This document shows positions 39,748 through 46,436 of a stretch of 64,000 nt of DNA, piece by piece (position 1 is the stretch's first letter; each line of letters opens with the position of its first letter). Position numbers and translations under genes: made by a program. The DNA is from Roseobacter sp. MH60115 (GTDB lineage Bacteria > Pseudomonadota > Alphaproteobacteria > Rhodobacterales > Rhodobacteraceae), in NCBI RefSeq assembly GCF_015644665.1, contig NZ_JADOBQ010000002.1, positions 868,001-932,000 of the forward strand, in the 5' to 3' direction. The notes under the pieces are model-generated. The model was not told the DNA's origin. It made no database searches and saw nothing but the letters and a program-made list of their open reading frames with translations.

Positions 39748-41100
39748 ATGTCCAGCCACGGCGCCTCCATCCCCATGACATCCCGCCCCTGCGGCCCGCT
39801 GAAGGGCGAAGCGCGGGTGCCGGGCGACAAGTCGATCTCGCACCGGTCGCTGATCCTCGGGGCGCTTTGCGTGGGCGAAACCGAGATCACCGGCCTGCTC
39901 GAAGGGCAGGACGTGCTGGACACGGCGAAGGCGATGCGGGCCTTTGGCGCCGAGGTCACCGATCACGGTGGCGGCAACTGGAGCGTCCATGGTGTCGGCG
40001 TCGGTGGCTTTGCCGAGCCTGAGCAGGTGATTGATTGCGGGAACTCCGGCACCGGTGTGCGGCTGATCATGGGGGCCATGGCCACCTCGCCGATTGCTGC
40101 GACCTTTACCGGTGATGCGTCCCTGAACGGACGGCCGATGGCGCGGGTGACCGACCCGCTGGCGCTTTTCGGCACGCAGGCCTTTGGCCGGGCAGGGGGG
40201 CGGTTGCCGATGACCATTCTGGGGGCTGCTGACCCGGTGCCTGTCACCTATACGGTGCCGGTTCCTTCGGCGCAGGTGAAATCGGCAGTGCTGCTGGCGG
40301 GGTTGAACGCGCCGGGTAAAACCGTGGTGATCGAAGCTGAAGCCACGCGGGACCACACCGAACGTATGCTGAAAGGTTTCGGCGCCGAGATCACAGTAGA
40401 AGAGACCGACGAAGGCCGGGTGATCACCCTGACCGGCCAGCCGGAGCTCAAACCGCAAAAGATCGACGTGCCACGTGATCCATCCTCTGCCGCATTCCCT
40501 GTTTGCGCCGCACTCATCGTGCCGGGGTCGGATGTGCTGGTGCCCGGCATCGGGCTCAACCCGACGCGCGCAGGTCTCTATAACACGCTGCGCGAGATGG
40601 GCGCCGATCTGACCTATGAGAATGAACGCACCGAAGGCGGCGAACCCGTCGCCGATCTGCGCGCGCGTTTCTCGCCTGAGATGAAAGGCATCGAGGTGCC
40701 ACCCGAGCGCGCGGCCAGCATGATCGACGAATACCCGGTCCTCTCTGTGGTGGCGGCTTTTGCGCAAGGCGAAACGGTGATGCGCGGCGTGAAAGAGCTG
40801 CGCGTCAAGGAAAGCGACCGGATTGATGCCATGGCCGTGGGGCTGCGCGCCAATGGGATCACCGTGGACGAAGGGCCGGACTGGTGGACCGTGACGGGGC
40901 TTGGGCATGGCAATGTACCGGGCGGGGCCACCAGCGCCAGCCATCTCGATCACCGGATCGCGATGTCCTTCCTGATCCTCGGCATGGCCGCACAGAAACC
41001 GGTGAGCGTGGATGACGGCGGCCCGATTGCCACCTCCTTCCCGATTTTCGAGCCGTTGATGTCCGAGCTGGGCGCGCATCTGGTGCGCGACAATGCATGA
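39748..41100 (+). CDS. aroA: 3-phosphoshikimate 1-carboxyvinyltransferase (EPSP synthase)
   Basis: A 450-residue shikimate-pathway enzyme. Characteristic text is [48 protein letters not shown], and [12 protein letters not shown]. The Ala in NSGTGVR and GALC context resemble class II (glyphosate-tolerant type) enzymes, though I infer this only loosely. Its TGA overlaps the cmk ATG, so the two genes are co-translated. Confidence 0.96.
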
Positions 41101-41711
41101 GCGCGCCCTTCACCATAGCGATTGACGGGCCGGCAGCGGCGGGTAAGGGCACGATTTCCAAGGCTGTTGCCGCACATTTCGGTTTTGCGCATCTGGACAC
41201 CGGGCTGCTCTACCGGGCCGTCGGGGCCAAGCTGTTGCTGGGTATGGACCCGGTGGTCGCGGCGCGAACATTGACGGCAGAAGATCTGCAAGGCGGTGAT
41301 CTGCGCAGCCCGGAGGTGGCGCAGGCCGCCAGCAAGGTTGCGGTGATCGGCGAGGTGCGCGCGGCCCTGCTGGATTTCCAACGCAGCTTTGCCCGCCGGG
41401 CCGGCGGGGCGGTGCTGGATGGGCGCGACATCGGTACGGTGATTTGCCCCAATGCAGAGGCCAAACTCTTTGTCACCGCGCGCGCCGAGGTCCGTGCCGA
41501 CAGGCGCTTTGCCGAATTGAACGCAGCAGGTGCCGCTGTCAGCCGCGCACAGGTGCTGGCAGATGTGAAAGAACGTGACGCACGGGATCGGGAACGCGCG
41601 GCGGCACCGCTGATCCCGGCGCAGGACGCCGTGGAAATCGATACCTCCGATATGAGCATTGAGGACGCGATTGCGGCGGCAATCGCTGCCATCGAGGCGC
41701 GCAGATCCTGA
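41097..41711 (+). CDS. cmk: Cytidylate kinase
   Basis: A 204-residue nucleoside monophosphate kinase. It has the P-loop [47 protein letters not shown] and [19 protein letters not shown]. It phosphorylates CMP/dCMP. It overlaps aroA by four bases. In most relatives rpsA follows directly; here about 2.6 kb with three extra genes intervenes. Confidence 0.95.
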
Positions 41712-41812: not shown

Positions 41813-42358
41813 ATGGCACGATTTCCTCTGACTCTGGCGCTGATCCTTTGCGGCACGCTCAGCTTTGCCCAGCAAGACGAGACGCCCGCCCCGGAGCCCC
41901 TTTCGGAACCGCCGATGACGCTGGAGCGGCTGGCCAATATCATTCTGAACATCGACGAAGATGCGCAGCTGCGCGGCTCTGCCATCGAGTTCACCATTCA
42001 GGATATCCCGGTGATCGTCGTGGCCGATCCGCGCGCCGACCGGATGCGGGCCATGGTGCCGATCCGTTCGTCCGATGGGTTGGACCCCGAAGAGTTGATG
42101 CGCCTCATGCAGGCCAATTTCGACAGCGCGCTGGACGCCCGGTATGCCGTGGCGCGTGGCAGACTCTGGGGGGTCTTTATCCATCCGCTCTCCCCGCTGG
42201 AGCAGGACCAGTTTCTGTCGGCGCTGGTGCAGACCGTGAACGTGGCCCGCACCTACGGGCAAACCTATTCCGGCGGCGCCCAGGTCTTTGGCGGTGGCGA
42301 CAGCAATGGCATCTACCAGGACCTGCTGGATGACTTGCGCAAGGGCCAGGCACTCTAG
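41813..42358 (+). CDS. Secreted YbjN-domain protein
   Basis: A 181-residue protein. It has a signal peptide (MARFPLTLALILCGTLSFAQ), then a YbjN-like domain: MTLERLANIILNIDEDAQLRGSAIEFTIQDIPVIVVADPRADRMRAMVPI with ELMRLMQANFDSALDARYAVARGRLWGVFIHPLSPL. YbjN folds resemble type III secretion chaperones, and function is unknown. ATG 41813 is preferred to an in-frame start 33 bases upstream since the signal begins there. Part of an insertion between cmk and rpsA. Confidence 0.78.
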   Translation: MARFPLTLALILCGTLSFAQQDETPAPEPLSEPPMTLERLANIILNIDEDAQLRGSAIEFTIQDIPVIVVADPRADRMRAMVPIRSSDGLDPEELMRLMQANFDSALDARYAVARGRLWGVFIHPLSPLEQDQFLSALVQTVNVARTYGQTYSGGAQVFGGGDSNGIYQDLLDDLRKGQAL

Positions 42359-42681
42359 TCTGCACCGCCCACGGGACCCCGCAAAACGCGATCAACCCAG
42401 CTTATATCGAAGCCTTTCCTTTTGTTGGTAAGGTTTCACTAACTATTGCATGCTGAGCGCGCTGCGCAGGGTTAAAGTCGCGCGGTCATCTATCTCAGGA
42501 CATTTCAGGCCGTCCCTCAGTGGCTGCGCCTGAAACTGGACGAACCAAACATACGGGCCACGGTATTTTTCCTGTTTTTCCGCCGTGGCACGCATGATGC
42601 GCATGGCAATTGGCCTGCAACGGATACTCTGGTGATGATGGTCGCGGACGACCCTGTGCGGCGCATTTGTCGTAGTTCAGC
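42359..42681. other. 323-base intergenic region before the VPLPA-CTERM pair
   Basis: No convincing reading frame or RNA gene is seen on either strand. The only structure I can support is a sigma-54-like promoter at 42586-42601. Confidence 0.5.
42586..42601 (+). promoter_or_regulatory. Sigma-54-like promoter element
   Basis: TGGCACG-CATG-ATGCG matches the -24/-12 consensus TGGCACG-N4-TTGC at all but one position, with GG and GC exactly 12 bases apart. It lies 80 bases before the first VPLPA-CTERM gene. Sigma-54 activators of the PrsK/PrsR type accompany exosortase systems in other bacteria, which makes the match more interesting; none is encoded in the window. Confidence 0.42.
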
Positions 42682-43404
42682 ATGAGTACTTCTATGAAAC
42701 ATTTTCTTGCACCATCCCTTCTCTCCGCAGCCCTGATCGCGTTTTGCGCCCCTGTCTCCGCCAAATCGATCAGCTTCACCGGCATTCTCGATTTCGAAAA
42801 CTACATCGGATCGGAACAACCGTTCTCCGAACAACCCGCAACGCTTGATGTCACCATTGGAATTGATACTTCGGCACCCGTGGACTCCTCGGTCGACTCC
42901 GGTGGTCTCGGTCAGTCCGCGAGCTACCTGACAGCCGTGACCTCCGCGCAATACGAGGCCTTTGGTGTCGGCGGCAATTCGATTGGCAGCTGGTCAGCAT
43001 CGGATTTCGAATTGACGATCGTCGACTTTGTGTTCGGTGACAGCTTTCACTTTTTCTCCGGCAATGCGACGGGCCCGGCACCCCTGAACAATCTGCTGAT
43101 ATTCTTCGACAGCCCCGCCGACACCTTTTCGGGCACCGACCTCGACCTGTTGACGGAGGAAAACCTAAAGGCGCTGTCCACCGGGGTGATCGGCATTTCC
43201 AGCTTCCTCGGCGATGGCGCAATCGGGGCGTCCTACCTGATCGACGGCGATAGTATCGTCGTCACGGACGATGATCCGCGCCCCTCTGTCGTGCCGCTGC
43301 CTGCGGGTCTGCCGCTGTTGCTGGCGGGATGGGGTGCATTGGGACTGGTTCGGCACCGCAAGCGTCTGTTCGGCCTCGGCCCGCGCCTTAAGGCCGTGGC
43401 ATGA
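42682..43404 (+). CDS. VPLPA-CTERM-sorted surface protein, copy 1
   Basis: A 240-residue exported protein. It has a signal peptide (AALIAFCAPVSA), a beta-rich body beginning KSISFTGILDFENYIGSEQPFSEQPATLDV, and the C-terminal sorting signal VVPLPAGLPLLLAGWGALGLVRHRKR: VPLPA motif, transmembrane stretch, basic end. Such tails are recognised by an exosortase and removed during surface attachment. The next gene is a paralogue with the same architecture and overlaps it by four bases. No exosortase gene is in the window. ATG 42694 is an alternative start. Confidence 0.83.
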   Translation: MSTSMKHFLAPSLLSAALIAFCAPVSAKSISFTGILDFENYIGSEQPFSEQPATLDVTIGIDTSAPVDSSVDSGGLGQSASYLTAVTSAQYEAFGVGGNSIGSWSASDFELTIVDFVFGDSFHFFSGNATGPAPLNNLLIFFDSPADTFSGTDLDLLTEENLKALSTGVIGISSFLGDGAIGASYLIDGDSIVVTDDDPRPSVVPLPAGLPLLLAGWGALGLVRHRKRLFGLGPRLKAVA

Positions 43405-44099
43405 CCGGCGGTCTCAAAGCCACGGCTGCGGCGGTTGCATGGGCGGTGGTCCTTGCCAATCCGGTGGACGCCAAGACCATCAGCTTTACCGGTCTCTTCG
43501 AGGCGGAAAACTTCGTCGGTTTCGAGTACCCGCTGGCCGAGCAGCCCGCCACACTTGAGGTCATCATCGATCTCGATGAAACCTCTGCGCCGGATGTGGT
43601 GGCAGACATTGGAGCAGGCGAAACAATTGCCCAGTATTTTTCTGCGGTAACGTCCTTTTCCTATGAAGCATTTGGTGTCGGTGGCAATACGCTTGGGTCG
43701 TGGACGGCATCGGATACTCTGTTGCTGGTCAGCAGTCTCAACACCATGGACATGGTGCTGTTCACATCAGAGGCTGCAACAGGCCCCGGACCGCTTGACC
43801 GCATCCTTCTGACGTTTGAGGGAGACGCAAATGTTCTGTCCGGCAGCGATCTGGAGATGCTGGCGACGGGCACTTTGGGGGCGATGACAACCGGAGAATT
43901 CATCGTCCTGCAGGATCAGGACAACGCCCCCGCGATTGGCATGCAGTTTCTGATCGATTTCGACAGCGTCCAGGTGTTCGATGATCCGTCTTCCGGTGGT
44001 GGAACCCCGGCGGCAGTGCCCCTGCCTGCAAGTCTTCCACTGCTTTTGGCGGGGTTCTGGGCGCTCGGCCTGGTAAAACGCGGCAGATACCGGGCTTAA
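43401..44099 (+). CDS. VPLPA-CTERM-sorted surface protein, copy 2
   Basis: A 232-residue tandem paralogue of the preceding protein. A short signal (ATAAAVAWAVVLANPVDA) leads to KTISFTGLFEAENFVGFEYPLAEQPATLEV and FSYEAFGVGGNTLGSWTASD, which closely match ISFTGILDFENYIG and YEAFGVGGNSIGSWSASD of copy 1. It ends VPLPASLPLLLAGFWALGLVKRGR. Its ATG overlaps the stop of copy 1, so both should be made together. Function unknown; likely extracellular or biofilm-matrix associated. Confidence 0.83.
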   Translation: MTGGLKATAAAVAWAVVLANPVDAKTISFTGLFEAENFVGFEYPLAEQPATLEVIIDLDETSAPDVVADIGAGETIAQYFSAVTSFSYEAFGVGGNTLGSWTASDTLLLVSSLNTMDMVLFTSEAATGPGPLDRILLTFEGDANVLSGSDLEMLATGTLGAMTTGEFIVLQDQDNAPAIGMQFLIDFDSVQVFDDPSSGGGTPAAVPLPASLPLLLAGFWALGLVKRGRYRA

Positions 44100-44171: not shown

Positions 44172-44192
44172 AGGGCCGGTTCTTCCGGCCCT
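44172..44192 (+). terminator. Hairpin with downstream T-rich tract in rpsA leader (terminator or attenuator)
   Basis: AGGGCCGG (44172-44179) pairs with CCGGCCCT (44185-44192) over a TTCTT loop, followed by TTTCTCGTTTTT. It could end transcripts from the VPLPA genes or attenuate rpsA transcription, since it lies between the probable promoter and the start codon. Confidence 0.6.
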
Positions 44193-44286: not shown

Positions 44287-45963
44287 ATGGCAAATATGAT
44301 GGATGAGTTTGAAGCACTCTTAGAAGAAAGCTTCGAAATGGACACACCCGAAGAAGGGTCTGTCGTCAAAGGCAAGGTGATCGCGATTGAAGCGGGCCAG
44401 GCCATCATCGACGTAGGCTACAAGATGGAAGGCCGCGTCGAGCTCAAAGAATTCGCAGATCCCGGCGAAGCGCCCAAAATCGAAGTTGGCGATGAAGTAG
44501 AAGTCTTCCTGCGTCAGGTCGAAAGCTCCCGTGGCGAAGCCGTCATTTCCCGCGAAATGGCCCGCCGCGAAGAAGCCTGGGATCGTCTGGAAAAAGCCTA
44601 CGCCGATGAAGAGCGCGTCGAAGGCGCCATCTTCGGCCGTGTCAAAGGTGGCTTCACCGTCGATCTCGGCGGCGCCGTGGCCTTCCTGCCCGGCTCTCAG
44701 GTTGATGTACGTCCCGTGCGGGACGCAGGCCCTCTGATGGGTCTGAAGCAGCCGTTCCAGATCCTGAAAATGGACCGCCGCCGGGGCAACATCGTGGTAT
44801 CGCGTCGTGCGATCCTCGAAGAATCCCGTGCCGAACAGCGCGCCGAAGTCATCGGCAATCTGACCGAAGGTCAGACCGTCGACGGCGTGGTCAAGAACAT
44901 CACCGAATACGGGGCCTTCGTGGACCTCGGCGGTGTCGACGGCCTGCTGCACGTCACCGATATGGCATGGCGCCGGGTCAACCACCCGTCCGAGATCCTG
45001 TCGATCGGCGAGACCATCAAGGTGCAGGTCATCAAGATCAACAAAGAGACACACCGCATCAGCCTTGGCATGAAGCAGCTGCAGGAAGATCCATGGGATC
45101 TGGTGGCCGCGAAGTATCCGCTGGATTCCACGCACACTGGCCGCGTGACCAACATCACCGACTACGGTGCCTTTGTTGAGCTCGAAGCCGGTGTTGAAGG
45201 TCTGGTACACGTCTCCGAGATGTCCTGGACCAAGAAGAACGTGCACCCGGGCAAGATCGTCTCGACCTCTCAGGAAGTCGAAGTCATGGTGCTGGAAATC
45301 GACGGTGCCAAGCGCCGTGTGTCTCTGGGCCTGAAACAGACCATGCGCAACCCATGGGAAGTGTTTGCAGAAACACACCCCGAGGGCACGGAAGTCGAAG
45401 GCGAAGTCAAGAACATCACCGAGTTTGGTCTGTTCGTCGGCCTCGACGGCGACATCGACGGCATGGTGCACCTCTCCGACCTCAGCTGGGACCAGCGTGG
45501 CGAAGAGGCGATCCAGGACTACCGCAAAGGCGACATGGTGCAGGCCGTTGTCTCCGAAGTGGACGTCGAGAAAGAACGCATCTCTCTGTCGATCAAGGCC
45601 GTGGGCGGGGACAAGTTCGCCGAAGCCGTGGGCGGCGTGAAGCGTGGCTCCATCGTGACCGTGACCGTGACCGCCATCGAAGACGGTGGTGTCGAGGTGG
45701 AATACGAAGGTATGAAGTCCTTCATCCGCCGCTCTGACCTGTCGCGTGACCGTGCCGAGCAGCGCCCCGAGCGTTTCTCCGTGGGGGACAAGGTCGACGT
45801 GCGCATCACCAATGTGGACAACAAGTCCCGCCGTTTGGGTGTGTCCATCAAGGCGCGCGAGATCGCGGAAGAAAAAGAGGCCGTGGAACAGTACGGCTCC
45901 TCGGACTCCGGTGCATCGCTTGGCGATATCCTGGGTGCCGCGCTCAACAAGGGCGACGACTGA
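44287..45963 (+). CDS. rpsA: 30S ribosomal protein S1
   Basis: A 558-residue protein built of six S1 RNA-binding repeats. Several are evident: VVKGKVIAIEAGQAIIDVGYKMEG, VDGVVKNITEYGAFVDLGGVDGLLHVTDMAW, HTGRVTNITDYGAFVELEAGVEGLVHVSEMSW and VEGEVKNITEFGLFVGLDGDIDGMVHLSDLSW. It helps mRNA bind the small subunit. Length and repeat number are normal. A leader hairpin precedes it and a strong terminator follows. Confidence 0.97.
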   Translation: MANMMDEFEALLEESFEMDTPEEGSVVKGKVIAIEAGQAIIDVGYKMEGRVELKEFADPGEAPKIEVGDEVEVFLRQVESSRGEAVISREMARREEAWDRLEKAYADEERVEGAIFGRVKGGFTVDLGGAVAFLPGSQVDVRPVRDAGPLMGLKQPFQILKMDRRRGNIVVSRRAILEESRAEQRAEVIGNLTEGQTVDGVVKNITEYGAFVDLGGVDGLLHVTDMAWRRVNHPSEILSIGETIKVQVIKINKETHRISLGMKQLQEDPWDLVAAKYPLDSTHTGRVTNITDYGAFVELEAGVEGLVHVSEMSWTKKNVHPGKIVSTSQEVEVMVLEIDGAKRRVSLGLKQTMRNPWEVFAETHPEGTEVEGEVKNITEFGLFVGLDGDIDGMVHLSDLSWDQRGEEAIQDYRKGDMVQAVVSEVDVEKERISLSIKAVGGDKFAEAVGGVKRGSIVTVTVTAIEDGGVEVEYEGMKSFIRRSDLSRDRAEQRPERFSVGDKVDVRITNVDNKSRRLGVSIKAREIAEEKEAVEQYGSSDSGASLGDILGAALNKGDD

Positions 45964-46382: not shown

Positions 46383-46424
46383 TGATACCATTTAGTATCA
46401 TATTAAAGGATACCAAATGGTATT
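46383..46424. promoter_or_regulatory. Tandem palindromic operators upstream of the cupin gene
   Basis: Two similar 16-base sites, GATACCATTTAGTATC (46384-46399) and GATACCAAATGGTATT (46409-46424), share the pattern GATACCA-w-w-T-r-GTATy and are centred 25 bases apart. The second runs into the 5' end of the cupin gene. They look like dimer-binding sites of an unidentified repressor such as an HxlR- or MarR-type protein, but no regulator gene lies next to them. Confidence 0.6.
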
Positions 46425-46436
46425 ATGAGGTTGATC

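Follow-up and report, generated by a model that had tools for sequence, protein, structure and literature searches.

Exosortase sorting and transcriptional control by sigma-54 and PrsR are easily run together, and the gene pair described here, which we call A and B, raises the question of whether the two belong together at all. The locus separates them, in that the evidence for exosortase sorting is good and that for sigma-54/PrsR control is not. The pair lies in a 64-kb stretch of DNA (the window), corresponding to positions 868001-932000 of contig C12 of G000, a 4.76-Mb genome in 19 contigs.

The gene pair, its sorting tails and its genomic slot

The pair and its surroundings consist of the following features, with positions numbered from the start of the window:
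41097..41711, + strand, the upstream flank, which we take to be cmk (cytidylate kinase) and which lies upstream of rpsA in 19 of 19 congeners
41813..42358, + strand, a gene between cmk and the pair, presumably YbjN-like (YbjN/CesT-like; weak CesT match, E 0.016, below the cut-off)
42359..42693, + strand, a 335-nt leader private to the pair
42694..43404, + strand, protein A, with a signal-peptide-like N-terminus, a beta-rich domain and a VPLPA-CTERM tail
43291..43365, + strand, VPLPA-CTERM tail of A (TIGR03370, 35.9 bits)
43401..44099, + strand, protein B, a paralogue of A with a four-base overlap with A
44016..44081, + strand, VPLPA-CTERM tail of B (TIGR03370, 28.1 bits in the genome search)
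44172..44192, + strand, a GC hairpin and T-run in the rpsA leader, a possible terminator of the pair
44287..45963, + strand, the downstream flank, which we assume to be rpsA and whose first 150 residues are found in 19 of 19 congeners

A sequence-only reading of this DNA had described two paralogous, overlapping, exosortase-sorted proteins, and this description holds. The stop codon of A (TGA, 43402-43404) and the start codon of B (ATG, 43401) overlap as ATGA, a four-base overlap seen in all five known pairs, and A and B are 48% identical across 211 residues. The ATG at 42694 is favored as the start of A, with an aligned ATG in all five relatives; a start at 42682 is less likely, given that the aligned position is GTG in three relatives and no start codon in two. 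Recent conversion of one gene by the other in G000 was rejected: the nucleotide identity of A and B is at most 0.68 in 20-codon windows. Judged by eye, both N-termini look hydrophobic. At E 0.1 protein A is without a Pfam match, and those of B are all sub-threshold. The AlphaFold model of A has a beta-rich domain at residues 21-190, predicted with confidence (81-95 as ten-residue means), between two ends of low confidence; none of its 509 Foldseek matches to solved structures reaches E ≤0.001, which does not make the fold new, and the best VIA-align match (Z of 8.3, an OmpA model) is within that tool's range for common arrangements.

The model for the sorting tail (TIGR03370, cut-off 25.35 bits) matches A with 31.6 bits alone and 35.9 bits in the genome search, both over the cut-off, and B with 24.0 bits alone, just under it, and 28.1 bits in the genome search, over it; at E ≤0.1 it matches all 11 aligned cassette proteins. 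The genome contains 29 TIGR03370 matches at E 10, of which 17 exceed the cut-off, so that the pair is part of a rather large group of XrtD substrates. The exosortase that the sequence-only reading had called for is present: one of the two exosortases in the genome is XrtD, the VPLPA-CTERM-specific type (TIGR04152, 690 bits, cut-off 400). The second, encoded on the same contig as XrtD, is of the VPEID/XrtE type (424 bits, cut-off 150; L118:7989-9608) and has a CAAX-protease-like part. We posit that A and B would be co-expressed and exported by Sec, that XrtD would recognize and cleave their VPLPA-CTERM tails, and that both would then be attached to the envelope or to exopolysaccharide. Judging from these sequence matches, XrtD sorting probably fixes A and B to the cell surface.

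Among 193 genomes, G000 included, 27 match A at E 0.001, most of them mainly through the tail; strong full-length matches are found in six, all of the same genus, and weak long matches outside the genus in G081 (25%, one internal stop) and G098 (28%). A first scan of genome contigs for relatives of A outside the genus found none. A second contig scan, using an alignment, found at least 59 loci, and among the matches listed four are near full-length, all in Roseobacter and apparently in the same genomes as G011, G015, G002 and G006.

The sequence-only reading had also stated that relatives usually have nothing between cmk and rpsA. This is correct for the pair, which is absent from 13 of 19 congeners, and incorrect for the interval, given that cmk, the YbjN-like gene and rpsA occur together in 19 of 19 and several have more genes there. 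The A/B pair is found in five congeners and A without B in G014, so that the pair or A occupies the same place in six of 19; the G014 interval holds A plus a BLUF-like gene (assigned by eye). In pairless genomes the distance from the YbjN stop to the rpsA start is 237-299 nt in seven and 695 nt in G004, with ends uncertain by a few nucleotides where the tblastn match started only at residue 3 or 5, and five further pairless genomes (G005, G008, G001, G017 and G018) have longer intervals with further ORFs. Other genes in congener intervals (L115, L121, L126, L128, L129 and L130) appear by eye to be HxlR-like, BLUF-like and cyclic-nucleotide-binding-like. The pair leader is absent from those pairless YbjN-rpsA intervals whose sequence was compared, and the region at 44172..44192 also precedes rpsA in the pairless congeners compared. 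The cmk-rpsA interval thus looks like an insertion-prone slot, and the pattern of presence across congeners suggests that the leader and the genes are gained or lost as one, at a site that accepts other genes too. Elsewhere in the window, at 46384-46423, two adjacent and operator-like inverted repeats (GATACCATTTAGTATC and ATACCAAATGGTAT) stand just before an ORF at 46425 that is cupin-like by eye.

The leader and its sigma-54-like string

The leader upstream of A contains the following elements:
42418..42432, + strand, conserved block CCTTTTGTTGGTAAG (column conservation 0.86, five leaders)
42428..42443, + strand, weak CtrA-like site, GTAA-N7-YTAAC
42566..42580, + strand, conserved T-rich block TTTTTCCTGTTTTTC (column conservation 0.88)
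42586..42600, + strand, -24/-12-like string TGGCACGCATGATGC, TGGCACG-N5-TGC
42604..42619, + strand, second GG-N10-GC string TGGCAATTGGCCTGCA (score 12.1)
42605..42638, + strand, conserved block with an imperfect dyad, GGCAATTGGCCTGCAACGGATACTCTGGTGATGA (conservation 0.67-0.83)

Six leaders were compared in all, two of them near-identical, and conservation was computed over five, leaving out G015 as near-identical to G002. Mean column conservation is 0.62, rising to 0.88 at 42567-42582 and 0.83 at 42622-42637 and falling to 0.17-0.44 in the first 40 nt and 0.47 at 42551-42566. A profile of the leader matches only loci of the A/B cassette (308 sequences searched, many overlapping), and GCCTGCNNNGGATACT has its only exact genomic match in the block at 42605..42638.

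The sequence-only reading had placed a near-consensus -24/-12 element in this leader. The string is there, with GG-N10-GC at 42586-42600, but it is not clearly beyond chance: when the window is shuffled 100 times, 34 of the shuffled versions contain at least one such string, and sites within two mismatches of the sigma-54 consensus number seven in the window against 14.7 expected. We regard it as unlikely that either this string or its neighbor at 42604-42619 acts as a strain-specific sigma-54 promoter served by an activator other than PrsR. Several observations would fit such a promoter. RpoN is present (279.3 bits, cut-off 277.35), and among 25 genomic strings of the TGGCACG-N5-TGC type the one at 42586-42600 is the only one outside called ORFs; however, the reversed control yields 17 such strings, and the location of the other 24 inside ORFs (by a simple ORF call) is as expected of chance matches. 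With a matrix built from the sigma-54 consensus, whose scores are relative only, the string reaches 13.5 bits, and of 2000 random 250-nt stretches 4.6% reach at least 10 bits, 1.05% at least 12 and just 0.45% at least 13. Chance alone predicts about 0.1 leaders out of 25 at 13 bits or more, yet the string was chosen for its fit. It is kept in none of the five orthologous leaders, where the best sigma-54 scores are 6.2, 5.9, 3.3, 2.6 and 0, and its column conservation (0.50) is below the leader mean; since of the six cassettes that of G000 diverges most, loss of the string in the other five is not decisive. The second string, which lies in a conserved block, ends 74 nt before the ATG at 42694, comparable to the mean of 71 reported for motif 2 by Haft et al. 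(2006; PMC1569441). Its GG-N10-GC is found in three of six leaders, and the spacing or the GC is lost in the other three (one extra spacer base in G002 and G015, GC lost in G006). A departure from TTGC like that at 42586-42600, with the T missing, is likewise found in the pepA promoter of Aquincola tertiaricarbonis (TGGCAC and CTGCTT; PMC9850573), for which both the transcript start and the dependence on RpoN were determined by experiment.

We also scored leaders (up to 250 nt, only 168 nt for L003) of 25 of the 29 TIGR03370 matches, the four weakest being left out and starts being chosen automatically. The highest scores are 13.5 for the pair, 12.4 for L015, 11.8 for L022, 10.6 for L025 and 9.1 for L003, the L022 value falling inside a gene whose start was wrongly set. 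Four of 25 leaders thus reach at least 10 bits against about 1.2 expected, a mild excess that fits a sigma-54 promoter and that includes both the string at 42586-42600 and L022. The idea that sigma-54 controls VPLPA-CTERM genes at large was rejected; among the 25, the pair leader alone reaches 13 bits.

The proposed PrsK/PrsR control is not supported. Haft et al. (2006; PMC1569441) describe a PEP-CTERM/EpsH system with PrsK-PrsR and sigma-54, in which a motif 1 ending in TTTACA lies 32-92 nt before motif 2. In model searches of the G000 genome the best PrsR match, the activator whose presence the sequence-only reading had proposed to check, scores 316.3 bits against a cut-off of 502.6 (and 736 when compared with the NtrX model), and the best PrsK match scores 93 bits against 300. 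TTTACA, the 3' end of the 17-nt motif 1 and the part of it that was scanned for, is absent with up to one mismatch from the + strand of the leader, which also counts somewhat against a sigma-54 promoter here. Near XrtD is a TPR protein whose PrsT match (133 bits) stays below the cut-off of 312. Seven sigma-54-activator-like proteins were surveyed, weaker AAA-type matches being left out; one has GAFTGA and one GAFNGA, which favors a working sigma-54 promoter in this strain, and the orphan GAFTGA protein (G000:C12:157327) is one candidate activator for the promoter considered above. No GAFTGA-like loop is present in L032, L034, L036, L037 and L039, NtrX among these. A full TGGCACG-N4-TTGC string (L290, G000:C12:158502) follows the gene of the only GAFTGA activator at a distance of about 215 nt; a simple ORF call places it within a 140-aa ORF, so that it may or may not be intergenic.

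A chance match is therefore more likely than a sigma-54 promoter at 42586-42600. Because conserved blocks flank the string on both sides, we hypothesize that transcription would begin inside the leader, driven by other elements than the string. These blocks match none of the promoter consensuses scanned, and the single sigma-70-type match in the region, at 41915, compares with 0.8 expected. It is distinctly unlikely that the pair lacks its own promoter and depends on read-through from the cmk/YbjN transcription unit: the genes are on the same strand and the scan found no terminator-like site between YbjN and A, but a 335-nt gap with pair-specific conserved blocks would be unusual for a passive spacer. 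The CtrA-like site occupies the same column in five of six leaders with one to two mismatches to TTAA-N7-TTAAC (consensus from PMC4046655), with shuffle fractions of 0.015-0.22, and 1.0 in G006, which has no site. Given such a weak site, CtrA control of the pair is only an idea, and no paper in the accessible literature was found to join exosortase with CtrA. The leader was rejected as an RNA element: it has no Rfam match at E 1, it is not unusually folded (z of +0.62), and RNAalifold gives a covariation term of -0.3 with four of 17 pairs changed on both sides.

A direct repeat before other VPLPA-CTERM genes

No motif common to the pair leader and other VPLPA-CTERM genes was found, and the leader block pattern, with two mismatches, occurs 107 times in the genome against 193 when reversed. 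Three other VPLPA-CTERM leaders of G000, at L011/L175 (G000:C6:2061), L192 (G000:C12:286074) and G000:C14:78749, have GGACAAA-N14-GGACAAA in common. Among the three genes behind them, L011 exceeds the TIGR03370 cut-off, and L020 (24.1 bits) and L023 (20.1 bits) fall below it. Within the genus, such a direct repeat (21-nt period, some copies reading GGTCAAA) precedes ten genes with a V/IPLPA-type tail, the sites in relatives being L174, L181, L184, L178, L169, L200 and L202. The pattern is not enriched as such, given that with up to one mismatch the 19 congeners contain 60 copies against 59 reversed (hand sums). Sixteen of the 60 sites, chosen partly for resemblance to the first three, were read in detail: ten have a V/IPLPA-type tail downstream (by eye), two a similar protein without the tail and four neither. 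Among nine exact copies, six precede a gene with a VPLPA-type tail, one a seemingly broken relative (G009) and two other genes. A wider form of the pattern occurs at 19 places in 16 of 295 family genomes, against ten reversed, and only the three G000 sites have fewer than three mismatches. A fourth exact repeat in G000 (L199, G000:C13:534736) precedes a 769-aa ORF without a VPLPA tail. The repeat score of the A/B pair leaders is within background, and the pair is without the repeat.

Divergence of the G000 cassette and comparison with known systems

The G000 cassette diverges more from a close relative, G002, than most of its neighbors do. The cmk gene of G000 is 98% identical to that of G015 and 97% to that of G002, and windows of cmk and YbjN between G000 and G002 are mostly 87-95% identical (70-80% in three windows at intergenic parts). 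From 42384 to 44069 nucleotide identity to G002 drops to 42-68% per window, and from 44070 on it is 86-100%. The cassettes of G002 and G015 are 80-100% identical per window, mostly at least 91%. A tree of cmk and YbjN from 13 of the 19 genomes joins G000, G002 and G015 (85/99), and the A tree joins G002 and G015 with G006, G011 and G014 to the exclusion of G000 (100/99). Constraining the A tree to group G000, G002 and G015 is rejected (p-AU 0.0008), the group having been named after the tree was seen, and the B tree does not reject it (p-AU 0.34), so that the trees speak for replacement of A and not clearly for that of the whole cassette.

We posit that the divergent cassette, or at least A and the leader, would have entered through recombination within the conserved flanks, and these comparisons make allele replacement likely. 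That the cassette was never exchanged and its surface proteins diverged very fast in place we judge somewhat improbable. Such divergence is compatible with the tolerance of the B tree and with the retention of the leader blocks. It accords poorly with the A tree and with the near-alike cassettes of G002 and G015, two genomes that in their cmk/YbjN windows (0.85-0.98) resemble each other scarcely more than G000 resembles G002.

The best joint explanation, which we hold with reasonable though not high confidence as a whole, is that A and B form an accessory cassette of two translationally coupled genes for secreted, XrtD-sorted surface proteins, that transcription starts in the leader from elements apart from the string at 42586-42600, and that G000 carries a recombined, divergent allele. 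Apart from that allele, the locus is ordinary. Allele-exchanged surface antigens occur in other bacteria, and by analogy we raise the tentative and rather doubtful idea that Roseobacter XrtD substrates may have left the PrsK/PrsR/sigma-54 circuit, one set being placed under a regulator of two GGACAAA boxes 21 nt apart and the cmk-rpsA pair becoming a separately regulated cassette swapped by recombination. For the control of XrtD substrates in this genus, the repeat element and a possibly swappable surface-protein locus offer test cases.

In the accessible portion of the literature on Roseobacter exosortases we found nothing on the present subject, and in that on VPLPA-CTERM only a reactor ecology study. 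The locus resembles the PEP-CTERM/EpsH system (PMC1569441) in having exosortase substrates after long intergenic regions in a genome with RpoN, and differs from it in that PrsK and PrsR are not found over cut-off, TTTACA is absent and the -24/-12 string is unconserved. Like pepA of Aquincola (PMC9850573), the pair encodes exosortase substrates behind a -24/-12-like string; there the RpoN-dependent start was mapped, and here the string is missing from relatives. The N-terminal domain of A and B, with no Pfam match (A, E 0.1; B, sub-threshold) and no solved fold (Foldseek, E 0.001), sets the pair apart from the VPLPA-CTERM (TIGR03370)/XrtD (TIGR04152) system, to which it otherwise corresponds in the sorting tail of both proteins and the matching exosortase in the genome.
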